This document shows positions 1 through 14,689 of a DNA stretch of 64,000 nt, in pieces. Made by a program: the position numbers and the translations under genes. The notes beneath the pieces were generated by a model that was given only the letters and a program-made list of their open reading frames with translations, made no database searches and had not been told where the DNA came from. The DNA lies in the NCBI GenBank assembly GCA_024635755.1, contig JAGXIF010000031.1, positions 1 through 64,000 of the forward strand, read 5' to 3'. This DNA is from Halothiobacillus sp. (GTDB lineage Bacteria; Pseudomonadota; Gammaproteobacteria; Halothiobacillales; Halothiobacillaceae). The stretch's first letter is position 1. Every line of letters starts with the position of its first letter.

Positions 1-279
1 ATGAGCAATCGACGTTATCCAGACGAATTCAAGGTCGAGGCGGTCAAGCAGGTGACCGAACGAGGCCGGCGAGTGAAGGAGGTGGCCGAGCATCTTGGCG
101 TCTCCCAGCACAGCCTTTATGCATGGATCCGGCGGTATCAGCAGCCGGATGAAGAAAAGCAGAAGCAGCAAGCTCAAGCCGACGAGATCCGCCGCCTGAA
201 TGCGCAACTCCGGGAAGTCACCGAGGAGCGCGACATATTAAAAAAGGCGGCCGCGTACTTCGCCAAGCAGTCCGGGTGA
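1..279 (+). CDS. IS3-family transposase OrfA (helix-turn-helix subunit)
   Basis: This is the 92-residue OrfA of an IS3-family element. It has an N-terminal helix-turn-helix (RRYPDEFKVEAVKQV then EVAEHLGVSQHSLYAWI) and a C-terminal leucine-zipper-like stretch (RRLNAQLREVTEERDILKKA) that normally mediates oligomerisation. An A6G run near 240-246 just before the stop matches the -1 slippery sequence IS3 elements use to make the OrfAB transposase, and OrfB overlaps it by 4 bp. The ORF starts at the first base of the window, so the upstream inverted repeat is out of view. Confidence 0.9.
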   Translation: MSNRRYPDEFKVEAVKQVTERGRRVKEVAEHLGVSQHSLYAWIRRYQQPDEEKQKQQAQADEIRRLNAQLREVTEERDILKKAAAYFAKQSG

Positions 280-944
280 AGTACGCGTTCATCAAGGACC
301 ATGAACGCGCCCACCCGGTGCGCCGTCTTTGCCGTTTGATGGATGTCCATCCGAGTGGCTACTACGCCTGGAAGCGACAGCCGGACTCCCGGCGACAGCG
401 GGAAGATCGACGGCTGCTGGGCGTGATCAAGCAGTCCTGGCTGGAGAGCGGCGGCGTCTACGGCTACCGCAAGATCCACCACGGCCTGCGGGATCTGGGT
501 GAGCGCTGCGGCAAACATCGTGTGGCCCGCCTGATGCGTGGAGAAGGATTGAAGTCACAGACCGGCTATCGGCGCCGCCCCGGCTTTCGTGGTGGACGTC
601 CGGCCATCGTGGCGCCGAATCACCTGCAGCAGCAGTTCGACGTTTCTGCCCCCAATCAGGCCTGGGTGACGGACATCACCTACATCCGCACCCACGAGGG
701 ATGGTTGTCCCTATCAGTGGTTCTGGATCTGTTCTCTCGGCAAGTCGTCGGCTGGTCCATGCGCCCTCGCATGGACCGGGAACTGGCCATGAATGCGTTG
801 ATGATGGCCGTGTGGCGACGTCAGCCTGATGGCCCGGTCGTCGTTCATTCCGACCAGGGGAGCCAGTTCAGCAGTCACGACTGGCAGGACTTTCTCAAGG
901 CCCACGGCCTCGTGGGCAGCATGAGCCTCTGGATGCAATCCTGA
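276..944 (+). pseudogene. IS3-family transposase OrfB, C-terminally truncated
   Basis: This is the catalytic OrfB of an IS3-family transposase. It contains the HTH_21-like region (VYGYRKIHHGLRDLG) and an rve integrase core with the first two acidic residues visible (WVTDITYI and VVHSDQGSQFSS). The frame opens at a GTG overlapping the OrfA stop. Family members run about 280 residues and supply a third catalytic Glu after the GSMS motif. Here the frame leaves the family sequence right after LVGSMS and stops nine bases-worth of unrelated codons later (SLWMQS region), so the Glu is missing. The element is therefore dead in trans, and no right inverted repeat is seen. Confidence 0.88.
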
Positions 945-1846: not shown

Positions 1847-3478
1847 TTAGATTTGATTGGCTGCTGTTACTTCCGCAACACGGTGGGGTTGGACGAGTTC
1901 CGGTCGGCCGAAATGAAAGCCCTGGCCCCAGTCGATGCCCATGTCGCGCAAGGTGTCGGCGGTGCGCTGGTCGCCGATGAACTCGGCTATCGTGATCAGT
2001 CCCATGTCGCTGGCCATGGCCTGAATGTGCTGGACGATTTTCCGGGCGCGCAGGCTGTCGTTCATGTTTTGCACGAGCGCGCCTTCGATCTTGAGGAAGG
2101 TGAAGGGCATGTCCAGAAGATAGCGATAGGAGGAGTAGCCGCTGCCAAAGTCGTCGAGCGCCAGGCGCAGGCCGAAGTCGATCAAGGGCTTGAGGGCGGC
2201 GTAGGCATCGCTAGTGTCCTCGAGCACCTCCCGTTCGGTCACTTCCAGTACCAGCGGCTTGGCTTGCATTTGCCCGGTGTCGTCCAGGCAGGCGCAGGCG
2301 CTGCGGGCATTCTCGATCACTTTCTCCATCAGTTCCGGGTGTTGCAGGAAGTCGCCGGAGATATTGACGAAGTGCGCCATCGGACGGTGGTCGATCGAGG
2401 CGACGCAGTTGGAGATCGTCTGGTTGATGATTTCGAAGTCGATCCGGTGCGCCATTTGCAGCCGAGAAGCGGCGTCGATGAATAGCCCGGCGGGAATGAT
2501 CTCGCCATCGGGGGTGATCATGCGCGCCAGGGCTTCGTCGGCGACGACCTGGCCGGTCTTCAGATCGACGATGGGCTGGCTGGCCGCGACGATCCGTCCT
2601 TCATGGATGGCCCGGTTGAGGGCGCCGCCGGTAGTGTAGACCGAAGGCTGCTTGAGTCGGTCGGCATCGACCACCCGGTCGCGGCCAGTGCGTTTGGCCT
2701 CGTAGACCGCGGCGTTGATGGCACTGAGCTGATCCCGAGGCGGGGTGTGCGCGGTCTCTCCTGGGCCGATCACGCCGTGGCCGATGCTGACGGTCACCGT
2801 GCCCAGGTGCGGAATGTCGTCGACCGAGTCGAAGCGGACGGTGGAGGTTGCGATACGGATACGTTCGGCCAGATCTTGACTGCGATCGGACTGACGCGGC
2901 GGCAGCAGGAGCATGAATTCGTGGCCACTCCAGCGGGCGATCATCACGTCATCCGGCAAGGTTCTCTGCATTGCGTTGGCCAAATCGCGTATCAGGCGAT
3001 CGCCGACCTCGTAGCCGAGGTAGTCGTTGACCGTCTTGAGGTGATCGATATCCACCAGCAGGAGGCGGTGGCCGCCTTCGCCCTGTTCCTGCACTTCGCG
3101 GATGCGTTCCAGCATGGCACTGCGGTCGGGCAAGCGGGTGAGCGAATCGAAATTTCTGGGTGGGCAAAGGCTTTCCAGCAACACCACTAGGCGCTGGTGC
3201 TCGCCGATCGGGGTGATGCCGAGGGTGACCTCGCGGTTGTCCATCAGTCCCTTGAGATTGCTCTCGGCACCGTCGACCAGGGCGGCGCCCAGCGATTCCC
3301 CTTGGTTGAGGGAAAGGCGCTGGTCCAGACGTTCGCGCAAGGTTTCCCCGCCGTCGTGGCGGGGAAATGTCTGGTCGGCACGTGGACTAGCGCTCAGCAC
3401 GCGCCCGGAGGCATTGCACAGGAACACGATCATGCTTGGATCCTGTCCGCTGAAAACCATACTCTCGTCCAGTTGCAT
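1847..3478 (-). CDS. GGDEF-EAL protein, probable c-di-GMP phosphodiesterase
   Basis: The 543-residue product has a short N-terminal PAS-like region (MIVFLCNASGRVLSASP), a GGDEF domain and a C-terminal EAL domain. The GGDEF signature is degenerate: RWSGHEF replaces GGDEF, so cyclase activity is unlikely. The EAL domain keeps EALAR, FVNISGDF, LEVTERE, ALDDFGSGYSSY and a GQGFHFGRP end, consistent with an active phosphodiesterase; KIE stands in for the usual KID. The open frame extends to 3649, but the ATG at 3478 is preferred because it follows a purine-rich AAGGAACAAGGACG and the upstream residues look non-domain. No transmembrane segment is seen. Confidence 0.88.
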   Translation of the reverse strand: MQLDESMVFSGQDPSMIVFLCNASGRVLSASPRADQTFPRHDGGETLRERLDQRLSLNQGESLGAALVDGAESNLKGLMDNREVTLGITPIGEHQRLVVLLESLCPPRNFDSLTRLPDRSAMLERIREVQEQGEGGHRLLLVDIDHLKTVNDYLGYEVGDRLIRDLANAMQRTLPDDVMIARWSGHEFMLLLPPRQSDRSQDLAERIRIATSTVRFDSVDDIPHLGTVTVSIGHGVIGPGETAHTPPRDQLSAINAAVYEAKRTGRDRVVDADRLKQPSVYTTGGALNRAIHEGRIVAASQPIVDLKTGQVVADEALARMITPDGEIIPAGLFIDAASRLQMAHRIDFEIINQTISNCVASIDHRPMAHFVNISGDFLQHPELMEKVIENARSACACLDDTGQMQAKPLVLEVTEREVLEDTSDAYAALKPLIDFGLRLALDDFGSGYSSYRYLLDMPFTFLKIEGALVQNMNDSLRARKIVQHIQAMASDMGLITIAEFIGDQRTADTLRDMGIDWGQGFHFGRPELVQPHRVAEVTAANQI

Positions 3479-3572: not shown

Positions 3573-5921
3573 TCACGATTTGCTGATGTTCTCTTCGCCG
3601 CGGGTCGGAGCGGCGCGGCGCTTGTCGCTGTCGCAGGCCGGTGTGGCATTGATGCCGTCGATGCATTCGATCAGTGAGTCGATACGCCCTTCAATGATTT
3701 GGGAATCGGCCGATTCGTCCAGCGCGGTCTCCAGTTCGCCGGCGAGTGTCTGTAGCTCGGTTTCACGGCAGCAGGCTGCCGCACCACGGAGTTTGTGGGC
3801 CGCGTGCCGCAGGGCATCGTGATCGTCGGGGCGTTCCATGAGCAATCGGCGGTAGCTGGGCAGTTCGTCGCAGAGCAACTGGGTCAGGAAAGGGTCGCGC
3901 CCCGAGGCCGGTGCATCGGGGTGGTCAGCGTCCGTCCCGCCGCGCGAGTGAGCCTGCAGGGGGAAGAATTCCGCGATGGCACTCAGCAACTCGCCTGCGG
4001 TCACCGGCTTGGTCAATACCCGTTCGATGCCGCTGTGCAGCAGGTCCTGGTGCACATTGCCCTGGCGGTTGGCGGTGATGGCGATGATGGGGGTTTCCAG
4101 GTGGCGGGCCCGTTTTTTGAGAATGCGGGCGACCCCCGCCCCGGTGATGTCGGGCATGTGCATGTCGGTGAAGACAATGTCGATGTCTTCGTGGTTGGCC
4201 AGTTCCAGGGCCTGCTTGCCGTTGTCCGCCTTGAGCACGCGGAATCCCAACTCACCCAGCGTTTGCCCCAGGTGCGCGAGATAGACGGGGTCGTCGTCGA
4301 TCACCAAGGCGGTTCGCCCGGCGAAGGAATACAGGGCATGTCGCCCCGGGGTGGTTGGTGCTGCCGCGCGGGACCCGGGATCCCGGGATGGAGGGGCCGG
4401 CTGCGGTTGGGGCGCGCGTCGCGGGGCCAGGCGGTTATTCGGCCGCCGGGGCCCCGGCGCGGGGGCGCCCAGTACGCGTGCGAGCGAGGCAGAAAGGGCC
4501 CGGGCGCGGATGAACAGCGGCAGGGTAAAGTCCGCCCAGTGGAGCGGCGCGGCCGGGCGCCCGCGGATGGTCAGGTGGCTGGAAAGGCCGATCACTCGCC
4601 CGGCCAGCGAGACCCACTGGCCAAACGCCGGGTCGTGATGGTGGCGCTCGACGATCCGCTCGTCGAGGAAGAGCAGGTCCACCGGTTGGCCGAAGTCCGG
4701 TGTGGTCTGGATGCGTGCGCCGAGGGCCGCGAGGTTGCCCTGCCAGGCGCGGCGGTGCTGGTCGGATGCACAGACCACCGCGCAGAGTGTGTCCGCGAGG
4801 CGGTCGCCGTTGTCCGGTTCGCCGATCAGGATCGGGGCGGTGAATACCGCCGTGAGTCCATAGCGACCGTCCCCGGTGTCGACCACCTCCAGTGTCGAGT
4901 CCAGATGCTTGGAAATGCAGCGGATGATCCAGATGTCGATCAAGTCGTCGACCAGGAGCGCACCGAGGGAGTCGGGGAGTGCCTGTTCCAGACGGTCGGT
5001 CAGCGCTGGTCGTCCCATAGATCGCTGTTCGTCGTGCGGTTGCCCGTCGACGGTGATGCGCACTCGCCCCAGCCGGTCCCCGCCCGCGTTTTCCTGTTCA
5101 TCCTCGAGCTCGATGGTCACCGCCGGTTCGCGCAGGTGGCCGATGCACAACACCTCATTGAGCAGGCGGTCGAGCAGCCGGCGCAGCATCTGCGGATCGA
5201 AGGCGATTTCTCGCGGCAGATCCTGGTAGCCGATGAACTGCAGGACCTCGCCATCACGCTGGGCGGTGGTCTGCCAGTCGGTGACCAGATCCTCGCCGGT
5301 GGTGCGCAGATTGACTCGCCCGTCAGTGCGCGTCATGCGCCCGGCTTTGATCTCGTGGAAGTCGATGATGTTCTCGATCGAGATGCGCAGGCGGTGACTG
5401 GCGTGGCGCATCAGCTGAAGGGAGCGGGCGGGTTCCTGCTCGCCCGGCGGGGCCGGAGGCGCGCACTGGGACAGTCGGCGCTCCAGCATCGCCAATGCAT
5501 CGACCGCCGAGCGGATATGCCCCAGCGGGGTGACCCATTGTTGATTGACCAGCTCGAGTACCGAGGCAGTAGACAGCTGGGTATCCGTGCCGTCTGGGCC
5601 GTGCGGCTCTATGGCCGACTCGGTCACCGCGGAATCTTCACCGTATGGCGTCTCGGCGGCTTGCCCGGCATGGGTGCGGCGAGATATCCGCCAAGCGGCC
5701 AGTAACAGGAGCGTCCAGACCCCACCCCAGCCAATGGCGAGCGGAAGCGCGGCCGAGGGGGCGAACTCCTCTCCCCGCAGCAGCGAATCCACTGCCACCA
5801 GGGCAGGCGGGGCGATCAGCGTCGCGAGGGCGAGTAGGCCCATGGGTAGGCGGCTGGCGCGCTGCTGGTCCGGGTCCGTTTGTCTGGGTCTGGAAGCGTT
5901 CACCAAGGGCCTTTGTGGCAT
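3573..5921 (-). CDS. BarA/GacS-like hybrid sensor with degenerate kinase core, REC and Hpt domains
   Basis: The 782-residue product has two N-terminal membrane segments (LLALATLIAPPALVAVDSLL and LAIGWGGVWTLLLLAAW), a kinase-like core, a receiver and an Hpt domain. The dimerisation helix is recognisable (VTPLGHI; ENIIDFHEIKAGRM), but the phospho-acceptor His of the SHEIRTPL box aligns with Gln in NQQWVTPL, and no clear ATP-binding G boxes are visible. The receiver keeps its key residues (VIDDD, FTDMHMP, AITAN, LTKP) and the Hpt has AHKLRGAAACC with the His. It is divergent from cysM, and rlmD lies nearby as in many BarA/GacS loci. It may act as a phosphotransfer hub rather than an autokinase. 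Confidence 0.8.
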   Translation of the reverse strand: MPQRPLVNASRPRQTDPDQQRASRLPMGLLALATLIAPPALVAVDSLLRGEEFAPSAALPLAIGWGGVWTLLLLAAWRISRRTHAGQAAETPYGEDSAVTESAIEPHGPDGTDTQLSTASVLELVNQQWVTPLGHIRSAVDALAMLERRLSQCAPPAPPGEQEPARSLQLMRHASHRLRISIENIIDFHEIKAGRMTRTDGRVNLRTTGEDLVTDWQTTAQRDGEVLQFIGYQDLPREIAFDPQMLRRLLDRLLNEVLCIGHLREPAVTIELEDEQENAGGDRLGRVRITVDGQPHDEQRSMGRPALTDRLEQALPDSLGALLVDDLIDIWIIRCISKHLDSTLEVVDTGDGRYGLTAVFTAPILIGEPDNGDRLADTLCAVVCASDQHRRAWQGNLAALGARIQTTPDFGQPVDLLFLDERIVERHHHDPAFGQWVSLAGRVIGLSSHLTIRGRPAAPLHWADFTLPLFIRARALSASLARVLGAPAPGPRRPNNRLAPRRAPQPQPAPPSRDPGSRAAAPTTPGRHALYSFAGRTALVIDDDPVYLAHLGQTLGELGFRVLKADNGKQALELANHEDIDIVFTDMHMPDITGAGVARILKKRARHLETPIIAITANRQGNVHQDLLHSGIERVLTKPVTAGELLSAIAEFFPLQAHSRGGTDADHPDAPASGRDPFLTQLLCDELPSYRRLLMERPDDHDALRHAAHKLRGAAACCRETELQTLAGELETALDESADSQIIEGRIDSLIECIDGINATPACDSDKRRAAPTRGEENISKS

Positions 5922-5989: not shown

Positions 5990-6892
5990 ATGTTAGGTCA
6001 CCGTCTTGATCAATTGATCGGCAACACCCCGCTGGTGCACATCCAGCGGCTGGATGCGCCGGGCGCCGAGCGCGGCAACGTGATCCTCGGCAAGCTCGAA
6101 GGGAACAATCCCGCCGGCTCGGTCAAGGATCGGGCGGCGCATTCGATGATCTCACAGGCGATCGAGCGCGGTGACCTGCGCCCGGGGGATCGGTTGGTCG
6201 AGGCCACCTCCGGCAACACTGGTATTGCCCTGGCGATGGTGGCCGCCACGCTCGGCATTCGCCTGACGCTGATCATGCCCGAGCACATGTCGATCGAGCG
6301 GCGCCAGTCGATGGCGGCCTATGGCGCCGAGCTCAAGCTGGTCTCGCAGGCCCAGGGCATGGAAGGCGCCCGCGATCTGGCCGACGAGATGGCTGCTCGC
6401 GGCGAGGGGGTGGTGCTCGACCAGTTCGCCAACCCGGACAACCCGCGTGCCCACTACCTGACCACGGGGCCCGAAATCTGGCAGGCCACCCAGGGGCGGA
6501 TCACGCATTTCGTCTCGGCGATGGGTACCACCGGCACCATCATGGGCACGTCCCGTTATCTCAAGGAGCAGAATCCCCAGGTGCAGGTCGTCGGGGTGCA
6601 GCCCGGCGAAGGGGCGCAGATTCCAGGTATCCGACGTTGGCCGACGGAGTACCTGCCGCGCATTTTCGAGCCCCAGCGGGTCGACCGGACCTTGGATGTC
6701 AGTCAGCCGGAGGCCGAAGAGATGACTCGTCGCCTGGCTCGGGAAGAGGGCGTGATGGCGGGCATTTCCTCGGGTGGGGCGATGGCCGCAGCGATCAAGC
6801 TGTCGGCGGAGGTGGAGAATGCGGTGATCGTCACCATCGTCTGCGACCGCGGCGATCGGTACCTGTCCACCGGGGTCTTTCCCGCGGGCTGA
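5990..6892 (+). CDS. cysM: Cysteine synthase B (O-acetylserine sulfhydrylase, PLP enzyme)
   Basis: CysM makes cysteine from O-acetylserine and sulfide or thiosulfate in the cytoplasm. The 300-residue product has the PLP lysine motif NPAGSVKDRAA, the substrate loop ATSGNTGIALA, the phosphate-binding GTTGTIMGTSRYL and a C-terminal SSGGAM. It starts IGNTPLVHIQRL, as CysM proteins do. The frame is open far upstream (from 5645), but the ATG at 5990 matches the family N-terminus. It is divergent from the sensor gene and 104 bp upstream of rlmD. Confidence 0.95.
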   Translation: MLGHRLDQLIGNTPLVHIQRLDAPGAERGNVILGKLEGNNPAGSVKDRAAHSMISQAIERGDLRPGDRLVEATSGNTGIALAMVAATLGIRLTLIMPEHMSIERRQSMAAYGAELKLVSQAQGMEGARDLADEMAARGEGVVLDQFANPDNPRAHYLTTGPEIWQATQGRITHFVSAMGTTGTIMGTSRYLKEQNPQVQVVGVQPGEGAQIPGIRRWPTEYLPRIFEPQRVDRTLDVSQPEAEEMTRRLAREEGVMAGISSGGAMAAAIKLSAEVENAVIVTIVCDRGDRYLSTGVFPAG

Positions 6893-6996: not shown

Positions 6997-8340
6997 ATGA
7001 AACCCAAGCAAAAGAAATTTCCTCGGGGCGAATTTCCCGCCCATGTTGAATCCCTGACCCTGGAGGGTCGCGGTGTCGCGCATGTCAACGGCAAGGCGAC
7101 CTTCATCAGCCGGGCGTTGCCCGGCGAGGATGTGCGGTTTGTCTATCGCGACCAGCGGCGCCACTTCGATCTGGGCGATGCCGTGGCCGTCGATGTGCCT
7201 AGCAGCGAGCGGATCGAACCTGGCTGTCCGCATTTCGATGTCTGCGGTGGTTGTGCCATGCAGCACCTGTCACCGGAGGCACAGATCGAACACAAGCAGC
7301 GGGCACTGCTCGAGCAGTTGAGCCGCATCGGGCGGGTGGAGCCGGAAGTCGTCCTCGACCCGTTGGCCGGGCCGGTATGGGCCTATCGGCGCATGGCGCG
7401 GCTCGGCGTGCGACATCTGCGGCGCCAGGGGCGGGTGATAGTGGGCTTTCGCGAGCGGGGCAGTCCCAACATTGCCGATCTTGATGCCTGCCCCGTGTTG
7501 GATCCGCGGGTGGGAGAGCATCTGCGGGACTTGAGCGCATTGATCCACGGGATGGAAGCGCGCCGGGATATCCCGCAGATCGAGGTGGGGTGTGGCGATG
7601 ATCATTGTGCCCTGGCCTTTCGTCACATGGCGCCGCTGTCGGCGGCCGACCGGGCGCGACTGGACGCCTTTGCCGACCAGCACGGCGTGGCGGTTTTCCT
7701 GCAGCCGGGCGGTCCGGAAACACTGACGCCCCTGGTGGACGGGGATCGGGATGTCTACCCCTCCTACCGGATCGAGCCCTTCGATGTCCGGATTCGCTTC
7801 TCGCCGGTGGACTTCGCCCAGGTCAACGCCGTGGTCAACCAGCGCCTGGTGTCCCAGGCCCTCGAGTGGCTGGCGGTCGAGCCCGGTGAACGAGTGCTGG
7901 ACCTGTTTGCCGGGCTGGGCAACTTCACCCTTCCCCTCGCGCGCCAGGCCCAGTCCGTGACGGCGGTCGAGGCGGACCAGGCTATGGTGAACCGCGCCGC
8001 GCAGGCGGCGACAGCCAATGGCATCGCCAATACCCGTCACGTGGTCGGCAACCTGTTCAAGCCGGACTCGGCATATCCCTGGATGCAAGAGCGCTACGAC
8101 CGCGTTCTCCTCGACCCGCCGCGTGCGGGGGCGCAGGCGATGATGCCCGTGATCGCTCGTATGCAGCCAAAACGGATCGTGTACGTTTCCTGTCACCCCG
8201 GCTCACTGGCGCGTGACGTGGGCCAGCTGGTGCATGAACATGGCTATCGACTGATGGCGGCAGGCGTGATGGACATGTTCCCGCAGACCGCGCATGTGGA
8301 GTCGATGGTGGTGCTCGAACGTCGCTCTGGGCGTCGCTGA
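6997..8340 (+). CDS. rlmD: 23S rRNA (uracil-1939-C5)-methyltransferase
   Basis: RlmD methylates U1939 of 23S rRNA with S-adenosylmethionine. The 447-residue protein has an N-terminal TRAM domain (HVESLTLEGRGVAHVNGKA), the [4Fe-4S] cysteines (CPHFDVCGGC plus a later CPVLDP), the SAM-binding motif DLFAGLGNFTLPLA and the catalytic region LLDPPRAGA / IVYVSCHPGSLARD. Length and motif order match the family. In many Gammaproteobacteria relA follows this gene; here the next gene is a convergent prenyltransferase. Confidence 0.95.
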   Translation: MKPKQKKFPRGEFPAHVESLTLEGRGVAHVNGKATFISRALPGEDVRFVYRDQRRHFDLGDAVAVDVPSSERIEPGCPHFDVCGGCAMQHLSPEAQIEHKQRALLEQLSRIGRVEPEVVLDPLAGPVWAYRRMARLGVRHLRRQGRVIVGFRERGSPNIADLDACPVLDPRVGEHLRDLSALIHGMEARRDIPQIEVGCGDDHCALAFRHMAPLSAADRARLDAFADQHGVAVFLQPGGPETLTPLVDGDRDVYPSYRIEPFDVRIRFSPVDFAQVNAVVNQRLVSQALEWLAVEPGERVLDLFAGLGNFTLPLARQAQSVTAVEADQAMVNRAAQAATANGIANTRHVVGNLFKPDSAYPWMQERYDRVLLDPPRAGAQAMMPVIARMQPKRIVYVSCHPGSLARDVGQLVHEHGYRLMAAGVMDMFPQTAHVESMVVLERRSGRR

Positions 8341-9317: not shown

Positions 9318-9384
9318 GGTCGGTTTCCGGGGCCGAATGAACGAGGCCTCACTTTACCGCAGTACCGTCAAGCCAAGTTGGCCA

Positions 9385-9413
9385 TTGTCACGGGGCGGCG
9401 ATTTGGTTAGAAT
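9385..9413 (+). promoter_or_regulatory. Strong sigma70 promoter for the tRNA-Ser pair
   Basis: TTGTCA (9385-9390), a 17-bp spacer and TAGAAT (9408-9413) form a near-consensus promoter. The downstream sequence is GC-rich (GCGCCC), the kind of discriminator found at stringently controlled stable-RNA promoters. The first tRNA starts at 9445. Confidence 0.75.
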
Positions 9414-9444
9414 CTGCGCCCTTGCTGACCCGCGGGTCAGGAAC

Positions 9445-9535
<91 letters not shown>

Positions 9536-9597
9536 GTTTCATAGCAGCCCGGGGTGTCCCGGGCCCACGACACGGTCCTGCCGTGTCGTTCCCGTTT

Positions 9598-9688
9598 GGA
9601 GAGGTGCCGGAGCGGTCGAACGGGGCGGTCTCGAAAACCGTTGACCCCCTCGCGGGGTCCCAGGGTTCGAATCCCTGCCTCTCCGCCA
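9598..9688 (+). tRNA. tRNA-Ser (anticodon CGA)
   Basis: A second class II serine tRNA 62 bp downstream of the first. Acceptor GGAGAGG/CCTCTCC, anticodon stem GCGGT/ACCGT around loop CTCGAAA (anticodon CGA), a long variable arm (GACCCC...GGGGTC) and encoded CCA. It reads UCG and probably shares the upstream promoter. Confidence 0.96.
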
Positions 9689-9719
9689 AACACGCCAGTC
9701 CAGGATTACTGGACACACA

Positions 9720-10828: not shown

Positions 10829-11668
10829 TCACCCCATCGGGCCGGCGTGCCAGATCACCTTGCCTATCACCTTCAGCTCCCCATCACCCAGGTGGGCCGT
10901 AAATGGCTCGTACGCGCGGTTTGAACTCATCACCTTCACCTGGTCGCCAGGCAGACGTTGTAGGCGCTTGACCGCTACCTGGTGATCGATCTGCACCACG
11001 TAGATCCCATCGCGCGGCACCCGGTTGGCGAACGAGGTGTCGACCATGACGATCTCGCCGTCGTGCAGGTCGGGCTCCATCGAATCACCGCGCACGTAGA
11101 TGAGGTGGAGATCTGCCGGGTTGGCGTGGATGTCGCGGTGGATCCAATCGCGGCGGAACGAGAGCTGCGTCGCGATCTCCTCGCGCTCGATGTAGGAGCC
11201 GTCGCCAGCGCAGGCCTCGACGTTGTACAGCGGGATGGTGGCGAACTCTTCCGGATGAGCGCAGTAGTCACCCTTAGTCAGGAACGGGGCTATCCGGTGC
11301 AAAAGCCGTTCGGTGGCATCTTCTGGCAAGTGGATCTCTATTTCGTCCGGACCCACATCGGCGCCCGATTCTTGCGCGATCTCAAGTAGGCACTGGTCTA
11401 CAGCATCGGTGATCGATGGGTCCCGGTTGATATTGCCAGGCAGCTTTCGCTGGGCATCGGCAAGCAACATCTCTCCTTTCCCTGCCAGCAGCCAGTCCGC
11501 GCTGTAGCCAGCCTCCATGAGCCGGGAAAGGAAGTCTGCGTCCGGAACGCGGTCACCACGTTCGTAGTTTCCCCAGGAGTTTTTGTGGACCCCGCACTCT
11601 GCTGCGATCGAAGCCTGACTTCGATCACCCCGTATGTGTTTCAGACGATCGCCGATCGTGGTTGTCAC
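10829..11668 (-). CDS. Phage repressor, XRE helix-turn-helix plus S24/LexA-type peptidase domain
   Basis: This is the prophage immunity repressor. The 279-residue protein has an N-terminal HTH (DRLKHIRGDRSQASIAAECG) and a C-terminal S24 domain with catalytic Ser in GDSMEPDL, Lys in VAVKRLQR and a probable Ala-Gly cleavage site in EACAGDG. RecA-stimulated self-cleavage, and hence SOS induction, is expected from the family. The GTG at 11668 is preferred over an upstream TTG because AGGAG sits 6 bp before it. The gene is divergent from ner, as c is in Mu, and transcription runs toward the left end. Confidence 0.9.
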   Translation of the reverse strand: MTTTIGDRLKHIRGDRSQASIAAECGVHKNSWGNYERGDRVPDADFLSRLMEAGYSADWLLAGKGEMLLADAQRKLPGNINRDPSITDAVDQCLLEIAQESGADVGPDEIEIHLPEDATERLLHRIAPFLTKGDYCAHPEEFATIPLYNVEACAGDGSYIEREEIATQLSFRRDWIHRDIHANPADLHLIYVRGDSMEPDLHDGEIVMVDTSFANRVPRDGIYVVQIDHQVAVKRLQRLPGDQVKVMSSNRAYEPFTAHLGDGELKVIGKVIWHAGPMG

Positions 11669-11680
11669 TTGAGTCTCCTG

Positions 11681-11704
11681 AAGTAGCAACTGTGGTTGCT
11701 ACTT
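11681..11704. promoter_or_regulatory. Perfect 24-bp palindrome, probable repressor operator
   Basis: Half-sites AAGTAGCAAC and GTTGCTACTT are perfect reverse complements separated by TGTG. The palindrome lies in the repressor 5' leader, just upstream of its ribosome-binding site, within the divergent repressor-ner region. It is the obvious candidate for autoregulatory binding. Confidence 0.72.
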
Positions 11705-11808
11705 GAACAACAAGGGCAAACTAGCCGAAAGCCCGGTTATAAAACAATAAGTTACGAATATCGCGCCGACGGTAAACCTCAATCGTAAGCAGAAACCCAC
11801 AAAAGGGG

Positions 11809-11836
11809 TTGACGAGACACACGAACGGGTTTAATG
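11809..11836 (+). promoter_or_regulatory. Probable early promoter for ner and the transposition genes
   Basis: TTGACG (11809-11814) is followed after 15-16 bp by TTTAAT/TTAATG (11830-11836). It points rightward into ner and lies in the AT-rich divergent region. The -10 nearly overlaps the first possible ner start, so the downstream ATG at 11846 would be leaderless or nearly so. Confidence 0.55.
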
Positions 11837-11845
11837 TCCACTCCC

Positions 11846-12208
11846 ATGAAGCAGATAGACAGCACCACCCGCCAGCTCTTCAACGACCCCGCCAAGCGGC
11901 GGGCGTGGGTGAAGTACCAGATCCACATGCAGGGGCGAACAATGGCAGCTGTGGCCGAGGAAGCCGGCGTTGAACGCCAGACCCTGTACCAGGCCTTCCA
12001 GCGCAGCTATCCGCGCATGGAGAAGGTGATCGCCGATGCCGTCGGTATCGAGCCGGCCGTGCTGTGGCCGGAGCGGTATGACGAGCACGGCCTGCCTCTC
12101 TACCGCATGGGGCGACCGAAACGTTCCCGCCTGAAAAAGTGTACTTCCAAAAGTAAGCGTAACAGCGCCCCGGCCGGGCGCAACGTCCAGACGCGGGCGG
12201 TGAGCTGA
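11846..12208 (+). CDS. ner: Ner-like DNA-binding regulator
   Basis: The product (120 residues from the ATG at 11846) has the Ner/Nlp-type helix-turn-helix: WVKYQIHMQGRTMAAVAEEA then VERQTLYQAFQRSYPRMEK and IGIEPAVLWPERY-like end. Ner represses early and repressor promoters in Mu during lytic growth. Its position, divergent from the S24 repressor and first in the early operon, matches Mu. An earlier ATG at 11834 would add four residues but overlaps the promoter -10. The C-terminus is a basic Lys/Arg-rich tail longer than Mu Ner. Confidence 0.85.
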   Translation: MKQIDSTTRQLFNDPAKRRAWVKYQIHMQGRTMAAVAEEAGVERQTLYQAFQRSYPRMEKVIADAVGIEPAVLWPERYDEHGLPLYRMGRPKRSRLKKCTSKSKRNSAPAGRNVQTRAVS

Positions 12209-12209
12209 C

Positions 12210-12644
12210 ATGGGCCGTGATCCGCACACCCCCGACCTGTTCGAGGTGCCGCATCCGGTGCCGACATTGCCGGCATCGATGGATTACCGGCGGGAGATGG
12301 CGGCGCTGGTGGCGCACGTACTGAAGGCCGCGGACGGCGATCGGCACGAGATTGCCTCTCGAATGACCCGGCTGGCGGGAGTCGAGGTGTCGAAATACAT
12401 GCTGGACGCCTGGTCCAGCGAGGCCCGTGAGGCCTACAACATGCCGACCTGGGCGGCCCCCGTGCTCGAGGCGGCCTGCGAGAGCTACCTGGTTACCCAA
12501 TGGCTCGCGCAGAAGCGCGGCGCCCAAATGCTGATCGGGCGTGAGGCGCTGACGGCCGAGCTTGGCCGACTGGAGCGCTCCCGGGAAGAAGCGAACCAAC
12601 GGATTCGGGCGCTGAAAAAACAAATGGGACAGGAGGGTGCGTGA
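12210..12644 (+). CDS. Early phage protein of unknown function preceding the transposase
   Basis: This 144-residue protein sits between Ner and the transposase, a place where B3/D3112-like phages carry a similar small protein. Visible features are a conserved-looking central region (MTRLAGVEVSKYMLDAWSSE) and a C-terminal heptad-rich helix (ALTAELGRLERSREEANQRI) likely to form a coiled coil. No catalytic motif is recognised. Its TGA overlaps the next ATG (TGATG), implying translational coupling to the transposase. Confidence 0.72.
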   Translation: MGRDPHTPDLFEVPHPVPTLPASMDYRREMAALVAHVLKAADGDRHEIASRMTRLAGVEVSKYMLDAWSSEAREAYNMPTWAAPVLEAACESYLVTQWLAQKRGAQMLIGREALTAELGRLERSREEANQRIRALKKQMGQEGA

Positions 12645-14689
12645 TGACTAACCGTACCTTTACCGCAAGGGAGATCGCCGAGGCGATCGGTGTCAGCCCG
12701 CAAGCCATAAAGAAGCGTGCGAACCGCGAAGGATGGGCGTTCGAGGAAGCCACCGGGCGCGGCGGCAAGCGCCGCCTCTACCGCCTGACGGACCTACCGC
12801 GCGAAGTCGTCATGCGACTCACGCTGGACACAAGCGCACCCGCTCCGGCCGACGGGACGCTGCCGGCCACCAAAGGAGCCAACCTGCCGGCCGCCGAGGA
12901 GGTCAGCCAACGGCAATTGCGCGTGGCTTGGGCTCGGGCCGGCCTGTGCCGGGCGGTGAATCGCCTGGTGGCCGAGGCTGGTTTCTCCGTGAGCGCCGCC
13001 TGCCGGCACATCGCCGACGACGTGCGTGCCGGCATCGCGCCGGAGAATGTAATGCGACTGGCTAGCGAGGCCAACGACCGTCCGCGCGCCGGCGGCGGGG
13101 TTTCCCCGCGAGGCCTGCTGGGCTGGCACAAGCAATTCCGCCTCCAGGGCGAGCGCGCCCTGATTCCCGGTAGGCGACGCAAGGATCTTTCAGTGCCGTC
13201 ATGGGCAGGCGCTTTCCTGCGCCATTACCAGTTGCCGACCAAGCCGTCCGTAGCGGATGCGTACCGGGCCTTCAAACGCGACGTAAAGCACCCACCGAGC
13301 ATCCATCAGGTGCGCCGTTTCCTGGCCAAGCTATCGCCGGAGGCTCGCGAACGGGGTCGTATGGGGCCGCGCGAGATTCGCAACATCCTTCCCTACCGGG
13401 ATCGGGCTTTCAAGCACCTGGTGCCGAACGACATCTGGACGGCCGATGGACACACCTTCGATGCCGAGATCGCCCATCCGATGTTCGAGGGGAAGCTGTT
13501 TCGGCCGGAGATCACCACGTTCATGGACCTGCGCACCCGGCGGATTGTCGGCTGGAGCGTGGATCTCGCCGAGTCGGCCATCGCCGTTCTCGACGGCCTG
13601 CGCGACGGCATAGGCCGTTGCGGCATCCCGGCCATGCTGTACGTCGACAACGGCTCGGGCTATGCCAACGAGACGGTGAGGGATGTGGTCGACCGCATCG
13701 GGATCACGATGACTCATTCCTTGCCGTACCGCTCCCAGTCACGCGGTGCGATCGAGCGAGCCCAGCAGGTCTGGACCCGCCTGGCCAAGCGCCTGCCGAG
13801 CTACATCGGTGCGGACATGGACAAGGAGGCCGGCACGCGGGTGCACAAGATCACCCGGAAGGCACTCAAGGAAGGGGTAGCCCACCGCGCCATCATCGGC
13901 TGGGACGTGTTCCTTGAGATGGCCGAACAGGCCGTCGCCGAATACAACGCCCTGGTCCACAGCACGCTGAAAGCGAGCCCGGATGGCGTATGGGCGCAGT
14001 TCGTGGCTAACGGCTGGAGCGCGGAGACGGTCGATGCCGAGATGCTGGACATCCTCTGCCGCCCGCAGATCGAACGGAAGACGAACCGCGGTCGCGTGAC
14101 GCTGTTCAACCGAATCTATGCGAGCGACTCGCTGGCTCACCACCACGGCGACGAGGTGCTGGTCGGCTACGACCTGCGTGACGCCAGCCGGGTATGGGTA
14201 CACGACCTCTCCGGTCAATTGATCTGCGTGGCCGAGAAGGATGCGCACCAGACCAAGTACATGCCGGACGACCGGATGGCCGAGGCGCAGGAGAGGCGCA
14301 CCAAGGCCCAGCTGGGCCGACTCGGCACCAAGATCGAGAACACCACCGGCCAGCGGGTCGTTTCCATCCAGCTCGAGCACCAACCGGCCCGCACGATCGA
14401 GGGCGTGCTTGGCCCGCAGGTCATCGAAGCCGCGCCGGTCGAGGCCGAGCGCCTCGAGGAAGCGCGTGCCCGGATGCTGGCCGCCGAGCCGGAAATCGAG
14501 TGGGCCTCCGATCCGATGGGGCGATGGAAGCAATACCAGGAATGGTCAGGCCGAGATGACCTGACCGACGAGCAACGTCGCTGGGTAGCTCACTACCCGA
14601 CGACTGCCGAGTTCCGCCGGACGGCGGAGTTCTACGCGGACTTTGCGCCGCAAAAAAAAACCGCCCAACGGTGCGGCAACACCGTGTGA
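12644..14689 (+). CDS. MuA-like DDE transposase
   Basis: The product (681 residues) catalyses phage integration and replicative transposition. The N-terminus has a Mu-type winged HTH (FTAREIAEAIGVSPQAIKKR; GKRRLYRLTDLP). The catalytic core shows the three acidic residues in IWTADGHTFD, LYVDNGSGYAN and SRGAIERAQQVW, followed by the Mu C-terminal region. The length is close to MuA (663). GTG at 12641 is an alternative start. The last codons contain an A9 run directly followed by a hairpin (see findings). Confidence 0.94.
   Translation: MTNRTFTAREIAEAIGVSPQAIKKRANREGWAFEEATGRGGKRRLYRLTDLPREVVMRLTLDTSAPAPADGTLPATKGANLPAAEEVSQRQLRVAWARAGLCRAVNRLVAEAGFSVSAACRHIADDVRAGIAPENVMRLASEANDRPRAGGGVSPRGLLGWHKQFRLQGERALIPGRRRKDLSVPSWAGAFLRHYQLPTKPSVADAYRAFKRDVKHPPSIHQVRRFLAKLSPEARERGRMGPREIRNILPYRDRAFKHLVPNDIWTADGHTFDAEIAHPMFEGKLFRPEITTFMDLRTRRIVGWSVDLAESAIAVLDGLRDGIGRCGIPAMLYVDNGSGYANETVRDVVDRIGITMTHSLPYRSQSRGAIERAQQVWTRLAKRLPSYIGADMDKEAGTRVHKITRKALKEGVAHRAIIGWDVFLEMAEQAVAEYNALVHSTLKASPDGVWAQFVANGWSAETVDAEMLDILCRPQIERKTNRGRVTLFNRIYASDSLAHHHGDEVLVGYDLRDASRVWVHDLSGQLICVAEKDAHQTKYMPDDRMAEAQERRTKAQLGRLGTKIENTTGQRVVSIQLEHQPARTIEGVLGPQVIEAAPVEAERLEEARARMLAAEPEIEWASDPMGRWKQYQEWSGRDDLTDEQRRWVAHYPTTAEFRRTAEFYADFAPQKKTAQRCGNTV

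Follow-up and report, generated by a model that had tools for sequence, protein, structure and literature searches.

Does a protein that stands in the place of a global sensor kinase, and keeps its domain order, still serve the same pathway when its kinase residues are gone? The question is raised by an open reading frame (ORF) on the minus strand of a stretch of 64,000 nucleotides from Halothiobacillus sp. (assembly GCA_024635755.1, contig JAGXIF010000031.1, positions 1 to 64,000), hereafter called the window. A first-pass annotation had described its product as a BarA/GacS-like sensor that has lost its phospho-acceptor histidine and ATP-binding boxes and keeps its receiver (REC) and histidine phosphotransfer (Hpt) domains, and this core claim is now backed by a profile alignment, a comparison of folds, an intact ortholog at the syntenic site and conservation in 20 homologs. 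By its sequence the protein, which we call pseudo-BarA, is orthologous to the hybrid histidine kinase BarA/GacS. We consider it probable that it is a dedicated pseudokinase, in which the REC-Hpt part exchanges phosphate with a GacA-like regulator and the dead core has a regulatory role.

Gene and domain anatomy

The ORF is real, and the position, strand and length first assigned to it are correct. The gene and its parts are as follows.

3573-5921, minus strand: pseudo-BarA gene, 782 amino acids (ORF check, Pfam, homolog alignment, hhalign)
5670-5858, minus strand: two predicted N-terminal helices, residues 22-84 (AlphaFold2 helices 22-49 and 55-84)
5346-5570, minus strand: pseudo-DHp (HisKA-like) helices, residues 118-192 (AlphaFold2, hhalign to BarA, fold match to GacS)
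5541-5543, minus strand: codon of Q127, which stands in for the phospho-acceptor histidine (hhalign; glutamine in 20/20 homologs)
4824-5330, minus strand: pseudo-CA (HATPase-like) domain, residues 198-366, lacking the N-box asparagine, GxG, GLGL and the ATP lid (Pfam, hhalign, AlphaFold2, fold match)
4467-4790, minus strand: pseudo-receiver 1, residues 378-485, counterpart of BarA's first, degenerate receiver region (hhalign, AlphaFold2)
3972-4310, minus strand: intact receiver, residues 538-650, with the D586 codon at 4164-4166 (Pfam 4.7e-24; key residues invariant in 20/20 homologs)
3648-3893, minus strand: intact Hpt, residues 677-758, with the H709 codon at 3795-3797 (Pfam 6.9e-8; H709 invariant in 20/20 homologs)

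Response_reg (residues 539-649) and Hpt (residues 683-757) were the only domains above the Pfam cut-offs, and HisKA, HATPase_c, HAMP and sCache gave no match to the protein even at E<=10. Likewise, a HATPase_c search of the whole host genome returned 13 places, and the pseudo-BarA gene was not among them. The best NCBIfam model was that of BarA itself (NF008318), at 93.5 bits and thus below its cut-off of 890. E. coli BarA has a periplasmic sCache_4 sensor and a HAMP domain according to Pfam, whereas pseudo-BarA lacks both, and its two N-terminal helices may, to judge from the model, cross the membrane as a hairpin that leaves hardly any periplasmic loop.

Loss of kinase residues and retention of relay residues

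Homologs were sought in a sample of 57 genomes, composed of the host genus (g1; 11 genomes, host included), a sister genus (g4; 10 genomes), another genus of the family (g3; 5 genomes), the single genome G011 (g2) and 30 genomes of other families. A profile of 20 homologs was aligned by hhalign with a profile of E. coli BarA and five canonical relatives, and the alignment of pseudo-BarA with BarA spans the protein from HisKA through Hpt (probability 100, E 2.5e-43). In one homolog (L034) the chosen start, which overlaps cysM, is probably too far upstream, and its first alignment residues are therefore unreliable.

The phospho-acceptor H302 of BarA aligns with Q127, and the check in related genomes that had been suggested along with the annotation gave glutamine at this position in all 20 homologs. 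Histidines do occur nearby, at +8 from the acceptor site (H135, in 20/20 homologs) and at +1 in the sister genus (NQHWVTPL, 9/10 homologs; the tenth has asparagine), but never at position 127 itself, and a histidine at the acceptor site is thus rejected; at position 128 the homologs have Q, H or N. The N-box residue N419 of BarA aligns with E256, a site that is occupied by E, V, I or Q among the homologs, while residue 252, which corresponds to the first asparagine of the N box, is kept in the sister-genus homologs. The GxG and GLGL glycine motifs are not present in the profile alignment to BarA. The G1 aspartate (D451 in BarA) aligns on or beside D292, which is invariant in 20/20 homologs, so that the G boxes are partly traceable. 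The substitution of glutamine for histidine thus stands as first described, and the alignment revealed neither an acceptor histidine nor intact N and G boxes; the claim that the catalytic boxes are missing is right for the N-box asparagine and the glycine motifs and too strong for the G1 aspartate. Because the acceptor histidine, the N box and the glycine loops are missing, we propose that pseudo-BarA would be unable to take phosphate from ATP.

As the annotation had it, the key residues of the receiver and Hpt domains are intact: D542, D543, D544, D586, T616, K638 and H709 are invariant in all 20 homologs, and D586 and H709 are the equivalents of D718 and H861 in BarA.

Predicted structure

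The full-length AlphaFold2 model has a modest predicted local distance difference test score (pLDDT 67.5), and the model of the core only reaches 79.2. The models show DHp helices that are broken at the TP motif and a Bergerat-like sheet without the ATP lid, followed by a degenerate receiver (about residues 378-485), a receiver and an Hpt domain. The dimerization helix that the annotation had called recognizable is supported both by these helices and by the profile alignment, which begins at HisKA. The core model most resembles GacS from P. aeruginosa (Z 18.3, root mean square deviation (rmsd) 4.6 over 214 residues); the pseudokinase DivL scores practically as high (Z 18.2, rmsd 5.3, 200 residues), and RetS comes next (Z 15.9). 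A DHp/CA fold that is kept without catalytic residues and under selection, as the models, the fold matches and the substitution rates below indicate, is a trait of histidine pseudokinases.

Distribution, selection and descent

The family of the host consists of sulfur-oxidizing bacteria, and within it pseudo-BarA is present in 10 of the 11 genomes of the host genus (host included; the genome that lacks it is 64% complete) and in all 10 of the sister genus, with none in the five g3 genomes and a partial match only in G011. Among the other families, 5/30 genomes matched, in the receiver-Hpt part only. The named contigs with matches come from Guyparkeria, from metagenome-assembled genomes (MAGs) labeled 'Halothiobacillus' and from one Halothiobacillaceae MAG. 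A search with the core profile in 369 evenly drawn genomes of the class gave four matches, all from the host genus, and is a thin test because the sister genus, a known carrier of the gene, yielded no match.

The reading frame is unbroken in the 20 homologs. Ratios of nonsynonymous to synonymous substitution rates (dN/dS) were estimated by NG86 for six homolog pairs, one of which (L025/L027) is near saturation. They were 0.04-0.18 for the pseudo-DHp helices, 0.05-0.21 for the pseudo-CA domain and 0.02-0.09 for the pseudo-receiver, as compared with 0-0.05 for the intact receiver and 0.04-0.17 for Hpt, and with the higher values of the N-terminus (0.23-0.57) and the linker (0.22-0.72). The low values mean that the dead domains are under selection that nearly matches that on the live domains.

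The barA/gacS-type neighborhood that had been noted for the gene is seen on its upstream side:

5990-6892, plus strand: cysM, divergent neighbor (NCBIfam above cut-off; divergent in 20/20 loci)
6997-8340, plus strand: rlmD (NCBIfam above cut-off)

These assignments, the 20 loci (the window and 19 others) and the corresponding site in G011 all bear it out. In every locus pseudo-BarA is divergent to cysM, with rlmD beyond it in the host genus, and in E. coli barA likewise adjoins rlmD. Furthermore, in G011, which belongs to a further genus of the family, the protein encoded at the cysM-rlmD site has 889 residues and combines HisKA (4e-18) and HATPase_c (1.2e-18) with REC and Hpt domains, and is thus an intact BarA. 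In a tree of the REC-Hpt part, which has many long branches and is weak evidence, this BarA joins the clade of the pseudo-BarA proteins (93/87). Based on the profile match, the synteny, the intact BarA in G011 and the tree, we infer that the kinase was lost from an active BarA at the cysM-rlmD site in the common ancestor of the host genus and its sister genus.

The Gac/Csr pathway in the same genomes

The host genome has a single regulator close to UvrY (39% to the E. coli protein), for which the best NCBIfam family is UvrY/SirA/GacA. This REC-GerE protein is encoded next to uvrC in the four genomes examined (the host, G006, G013 and G011), and the GacA-like regulator is present in 11/11 genomes of the host genus and 10/10 of the sister genus, so that every genome with pseudo-BarA has one. 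In g3, where pseudo-BarA is missing, there is no uvrC-linked UvrY-like gene either; one of the five genomes (G014) has a weaker match (35%), located beside another large ORF and not beside uvrC. CsrA was found in 49/57 genomes, including the host and all five g3 genomes.

The UvrY box of E. coli is given as TGTAAG-N6-CTTACA (PMC4682653). The exact box has no match in the host genus and occurs in 7/57 genomes overall, one of which (G022) has it upstream of a CsrB-like RNA. A search with a wider pattern of the TGTRRG form yielded a TGTAGG variant in the host genus, with 18 identical bases in 10 of the 11 genomes, and in all ten loci the box is followed by a GGA-rich stretch and then by a queA-like start. 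None of three g3 genomes tested had any box of the wider pattern. In the host genus the wider pattern hit 18 places versus six for a backward control; this bare count is just moderately above the control, and it is therefore the identity of the box in both sequence and position that makes the case for it. The host locus is:

Host contig C36, about 30976, minus strand: CsrB-like RNA locus (L134), preceded by the 18-bp GacA/UvrY-like box and flanked by a hydrolase gene and queA

GGA counts beside the box, compared with 300 dinucleotide shuffles for each of the ten loci, gave z values of 1.8-4.6, and in eight of the loci no shuffle reached the observed count. The contrast was more telling when GGA was counted in predicted hairpin loops (six box loci, 60 shuffles each): the host RNA had 7, as compared with a shuffle mean of 1.8 and a maximum of 4, and five other genomes had 8-11 with shuffle maxima of 3-5. 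The control, E. coli csrB, had 9 (mean 2.2, maximum 6). The locus behind the box in the host genus is thus likely to be a putative RNA of the CsrB family under the control of GacA.

Second GacA-like boxes were observed in five genomes of the host genus (L126, L132, L133, L183 and L184), with no clear GGA enrichment; in G001 the comparison covered only one side of the box, as the other was too short. They are a possible further target of the GacA-like regulator.

Possible source and direction of phosphate

Since the kinase engine appears dead while the pathway is kept, phosphate would have to reach the pathway by another route. Starting from the observed anatomy, conservation, purifying selection and synteny, and from the presence of the pathway genes and the RNA locus, we infer that GacA is the partner and propose that phosphate would enter at D586 from outside the protein, either from acetyl phosphate or from a kinase in trans. 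In the forward direction it would pass from D586 to H709 and on to the GacA-like regulator encoded beside uvrC; alternatively, the protein would act as a drain, with phosphate moving from GacA~P to H709, to D586 and then to inorganic phosphate. We consider the two directions about equally likely. GacA~P would switch on the CsrB-like RNA, which in turn would titrate CsrA, and the conserved dead DHp/CA core may have been kept for dimerization, docking and the regulation of phosphate exchange. The literature offers precedents for the mechanism. Purified BarA proteins with an H302A mutation or with mutations in the G2 box are reported to take the phosphate of acetyl phosphate on D718, and the H302A protein to accept phosphate in trans from another BarA and hand it to UvrY (PMC4734776), while in ArcB the receiver and Hpt domains are described as carrying a reverse Asp-His-Asp relay that drains ArcA~P (PMC11620690). 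The reading as a REC-Hpt exchange module follows from the fact that pseudo-BarA keeps exactly the parts that these processes need. In the host genome, which is 88% complete, the five Hpt matches (three of them listed by place) belong to CheA (1), ChpA (3) and pseudo-BarA (1), so that the Hpt of pseudo-BarA is the only one of relay type seen in the host. The roles first suggested for the protein, a relay or a phosphatase sink on GacA, have become more plausible through the uvrC-linked regulator, CsrA and the CsrB-like RNA with its box, but no conserved donor kinase has emerged.

This last point is one of several that weigh against an exchange with GacA. Searches for hybrid kinases in the host genus identified no donor that is conserved together with pseudo-BarA. 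The host has one PAS-HK-REC hybrid kinase without Hpt, the only hybrid histidine kinase with a separate receiver seen among the host places of PF02518, ChpA apart; it was matched (E<=1e-60) in just 3 of the 11 genomes of the host genus (the host, G004 and G008) and is therefore probably not a general donor, a role for which it had been a candidate. The GacA-like regulator scores below the UvrY/SirA/GacA cut-off of NCBIfam (183.6 versus 280 bits), and the joint absence of pseudo-BarA and the uvrC-linked regulator in g3 may be a single event. For the RNA, the GGA enrichment is modest in the host (z 2.3; 7/300 shuffles reach the count) and in G008 (z 1.8; 19/300), and the Rfam model for CsrB (RF00018) reached its gathering score in 0/57 genomes and E<=0.1 in only four, none of them from the host genus. 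Finally, a GGDEF-EAL gene that is conserved next to pseudo-BarA suggests a possible partner in cyclic di-GMP (c-di-GMP) signaling instead of, or besides, GacA.

Several other explanations should also be considered. One, which we hold to be possible though doubtful, is that a separate histidine kinase, hybrid or not, charges D586 in trans or heterodimerizes with the dead core, and that pseudo-BarA then passes the phosphate to GacA, as in the RcsC-RcsD-RcsB system. The trans-phosphorylation of the H302A protein, the strong constraint on the DHp helix and the existence of the PAS-HK-REC kinase are all in line with such a relay. However, the PAS-HK-REC kinase has the restricted occurrence given above, no BarA-like hybrid was found in the host genus at E<=1e-60, and the other host kinases, read by eye, look ordinary and have partners of their own.

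A second explanation, about which we are equally tentative, is that acetyl phosphate or a non-cognate kinase charges GacA, and that pseudo-BarA serves as a GacA~P phosphatase by reverse relay. The reverse relay of ArcB, as described, uses a receiver and an Hpt domain, precisely the intact parts of pseudo-BarA, and the lack of a conserved donor in the searches of the host genus agrees with such a sink, but the direction of the flux cannot be told from sequence.

It seems unlikely that pseudo-BarA has left GacA to become a c-di-GMP regulator that partners the neighboring GGDEF-EAL protein. The gene adjoins pseudo-BarA in 20/20 loci, and in each of them SGHEF replaces GGDEF; its product keeps the E-x-L and N-I-S-G motifs of the EAL domain and, in loci that extend far enough, DDFG. 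However, only GGDEF and EAL are above the Pfam cut-offs in this protein, with no receiver or Hpt domain found, and all genomes with pseudo-BarA also have a GacA ortholog. Less likely still is that the core still binds ATP or autophosphorylates through unusual residues such as D292, H135 or, in the sister genus, His128: D292 and H135 are indeed invariant and the first N-box asparagine remains in the sister genus, but the N-box asparagine at residue 256 is replaced by E, V, I or Q, the glycine motifs and the ATP lid are missing and position 128 is variable. The loss of the catalytic motifs might also indicate a decaying pseudogene or a sequencing or assembly artifact, which we regard as ruled out for practical purposes by the 20 intact reading frames, the dN/dS of 0.04-0.21 in the dead domains and the invariant catalytic residues of the REC and Hpt domains.

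Neighboring gene and other features of the window

The gene on the other side of pseudo-BarA is:

1847-3478, minus strand: GGDEF-EAL gene, directly downstream of pseudo-BarA (Pfam; homolog adjoining in 20/20 loci)

Its motifs suggest that the product is likely a c-di-GMP phosphodiesterase. A CsrD-like role in the turnover of the CsrB-like RNA would be a guess; CsrD has degenerate motifs. In G015, the gene seems to be split into two frames (L110:10804-12483).

Elsewhere in the window, an ORF at 276-944 (plus strand) resembles, by eye, an insertion-sequence transposase with an integrase core. At 10829-14689, a repressor-like ORF faces small ORFs and a transposase-like ORF of 682 amino acids, an arrangement that by eye looks like the start of a Mu-like prophage. 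The overlapping ORFs at 9354-9716 look spurious, of a kind often seen over tRNA genes.

Relation to known systems and implications

Pseudo-BarA shares with E. coli BarA and P. aeruginosa GacS the domain order (DHp, CA, degenerate receiver, receiver, Hpt), the fold, the cysM/rlmD site and the GacA-CsrB-CsrA pathway, but it lacks the acceptor histidine, the ATP site, the sCache sensor and the HAMP domain. Because the kinase features fail, we class it as a pseudokinase variant of BarA/GacS. We found no report of a BarA/GacS pseudokinase among the best-ranked matches in the open-access literature; the word 'pseudokinase' in a paper on BarA of Acidovorax belongs to a plant reference and is not a precedent.

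Several other known systems invite comparison. In the Rcs system, the regulator RcsB is of the LuxR type and RcsD is not known to have an intact receiver. DivL of Caulobacter has a tyrosine at the acceptor site and is not known to have a receiver or an Hpt domain, and neither domain is known from ChrS. RetS has a core of the GacS family with a related fold and acts on the Gac pathway, but it does so through the GacS kinase (co-complex 7n0e), whereas no GacS/BarA kinase was found here in the host genus (E<=1e-60). RcsD, a membrane protein, is described as combining a pseudo-histidine-kinase region with an Hpt domain that gives phosphate to RcsB (PMC3762810, PMC7418988); it differs by an ABL domain before Hpt and by receiving its phosphate from the receiver of RcsC (PMC7418988), whereas pseudo-BarA has its own intact receiver and no known RcsC-like donor, and is itself the BarA ortholog and not an extra protein. 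DivL, as reported, keeps a dead DHp/CA core for binding, but reads DivK~P (PMC4211667). In ArcB, too, receiver and Hpt drain a regulator (PMC11620690), but ArcB is also an active kinase. In C. glutamicum, a ChrS variant with an inactivated CA domain is reported to have gained a role through a second kinase, but it arose by laboratory evolution (PMC9491836). By analogy, pseudo-BarA would in its working be most like RcsD and DivL.

Few global sensor kinases have been studied as thoroughly as BarA/GacS, and our findings caution annotation pipelines against calling every gene at the barA locus a kinase. In this lineage the only BarA appears to be a conserved pseudokinase, with GacA, CsrA and a CsrB-like RNA kept, and it would thereby offer a natural case in which relay and kinase functions are split. 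This makes it testable whether the REC-Hpt part alone sets the level of GacA~P, and what purpose the dead DHp/CA core serves. One speculation, to which we give somewhat less weight than to the relay or the sink, is that the two genera run Gac/Csr without any dedicated histidine kinase, with acetyl phosphate or another small phosphodonor charging the receiver of pseudo-BarA and the Hpt domain exchanging phosphate with GacA. If so, a membrane sensor pathway would have been turned into a direct readout of the cell's phosphodonor pool, in which the dead core serves as the valve.

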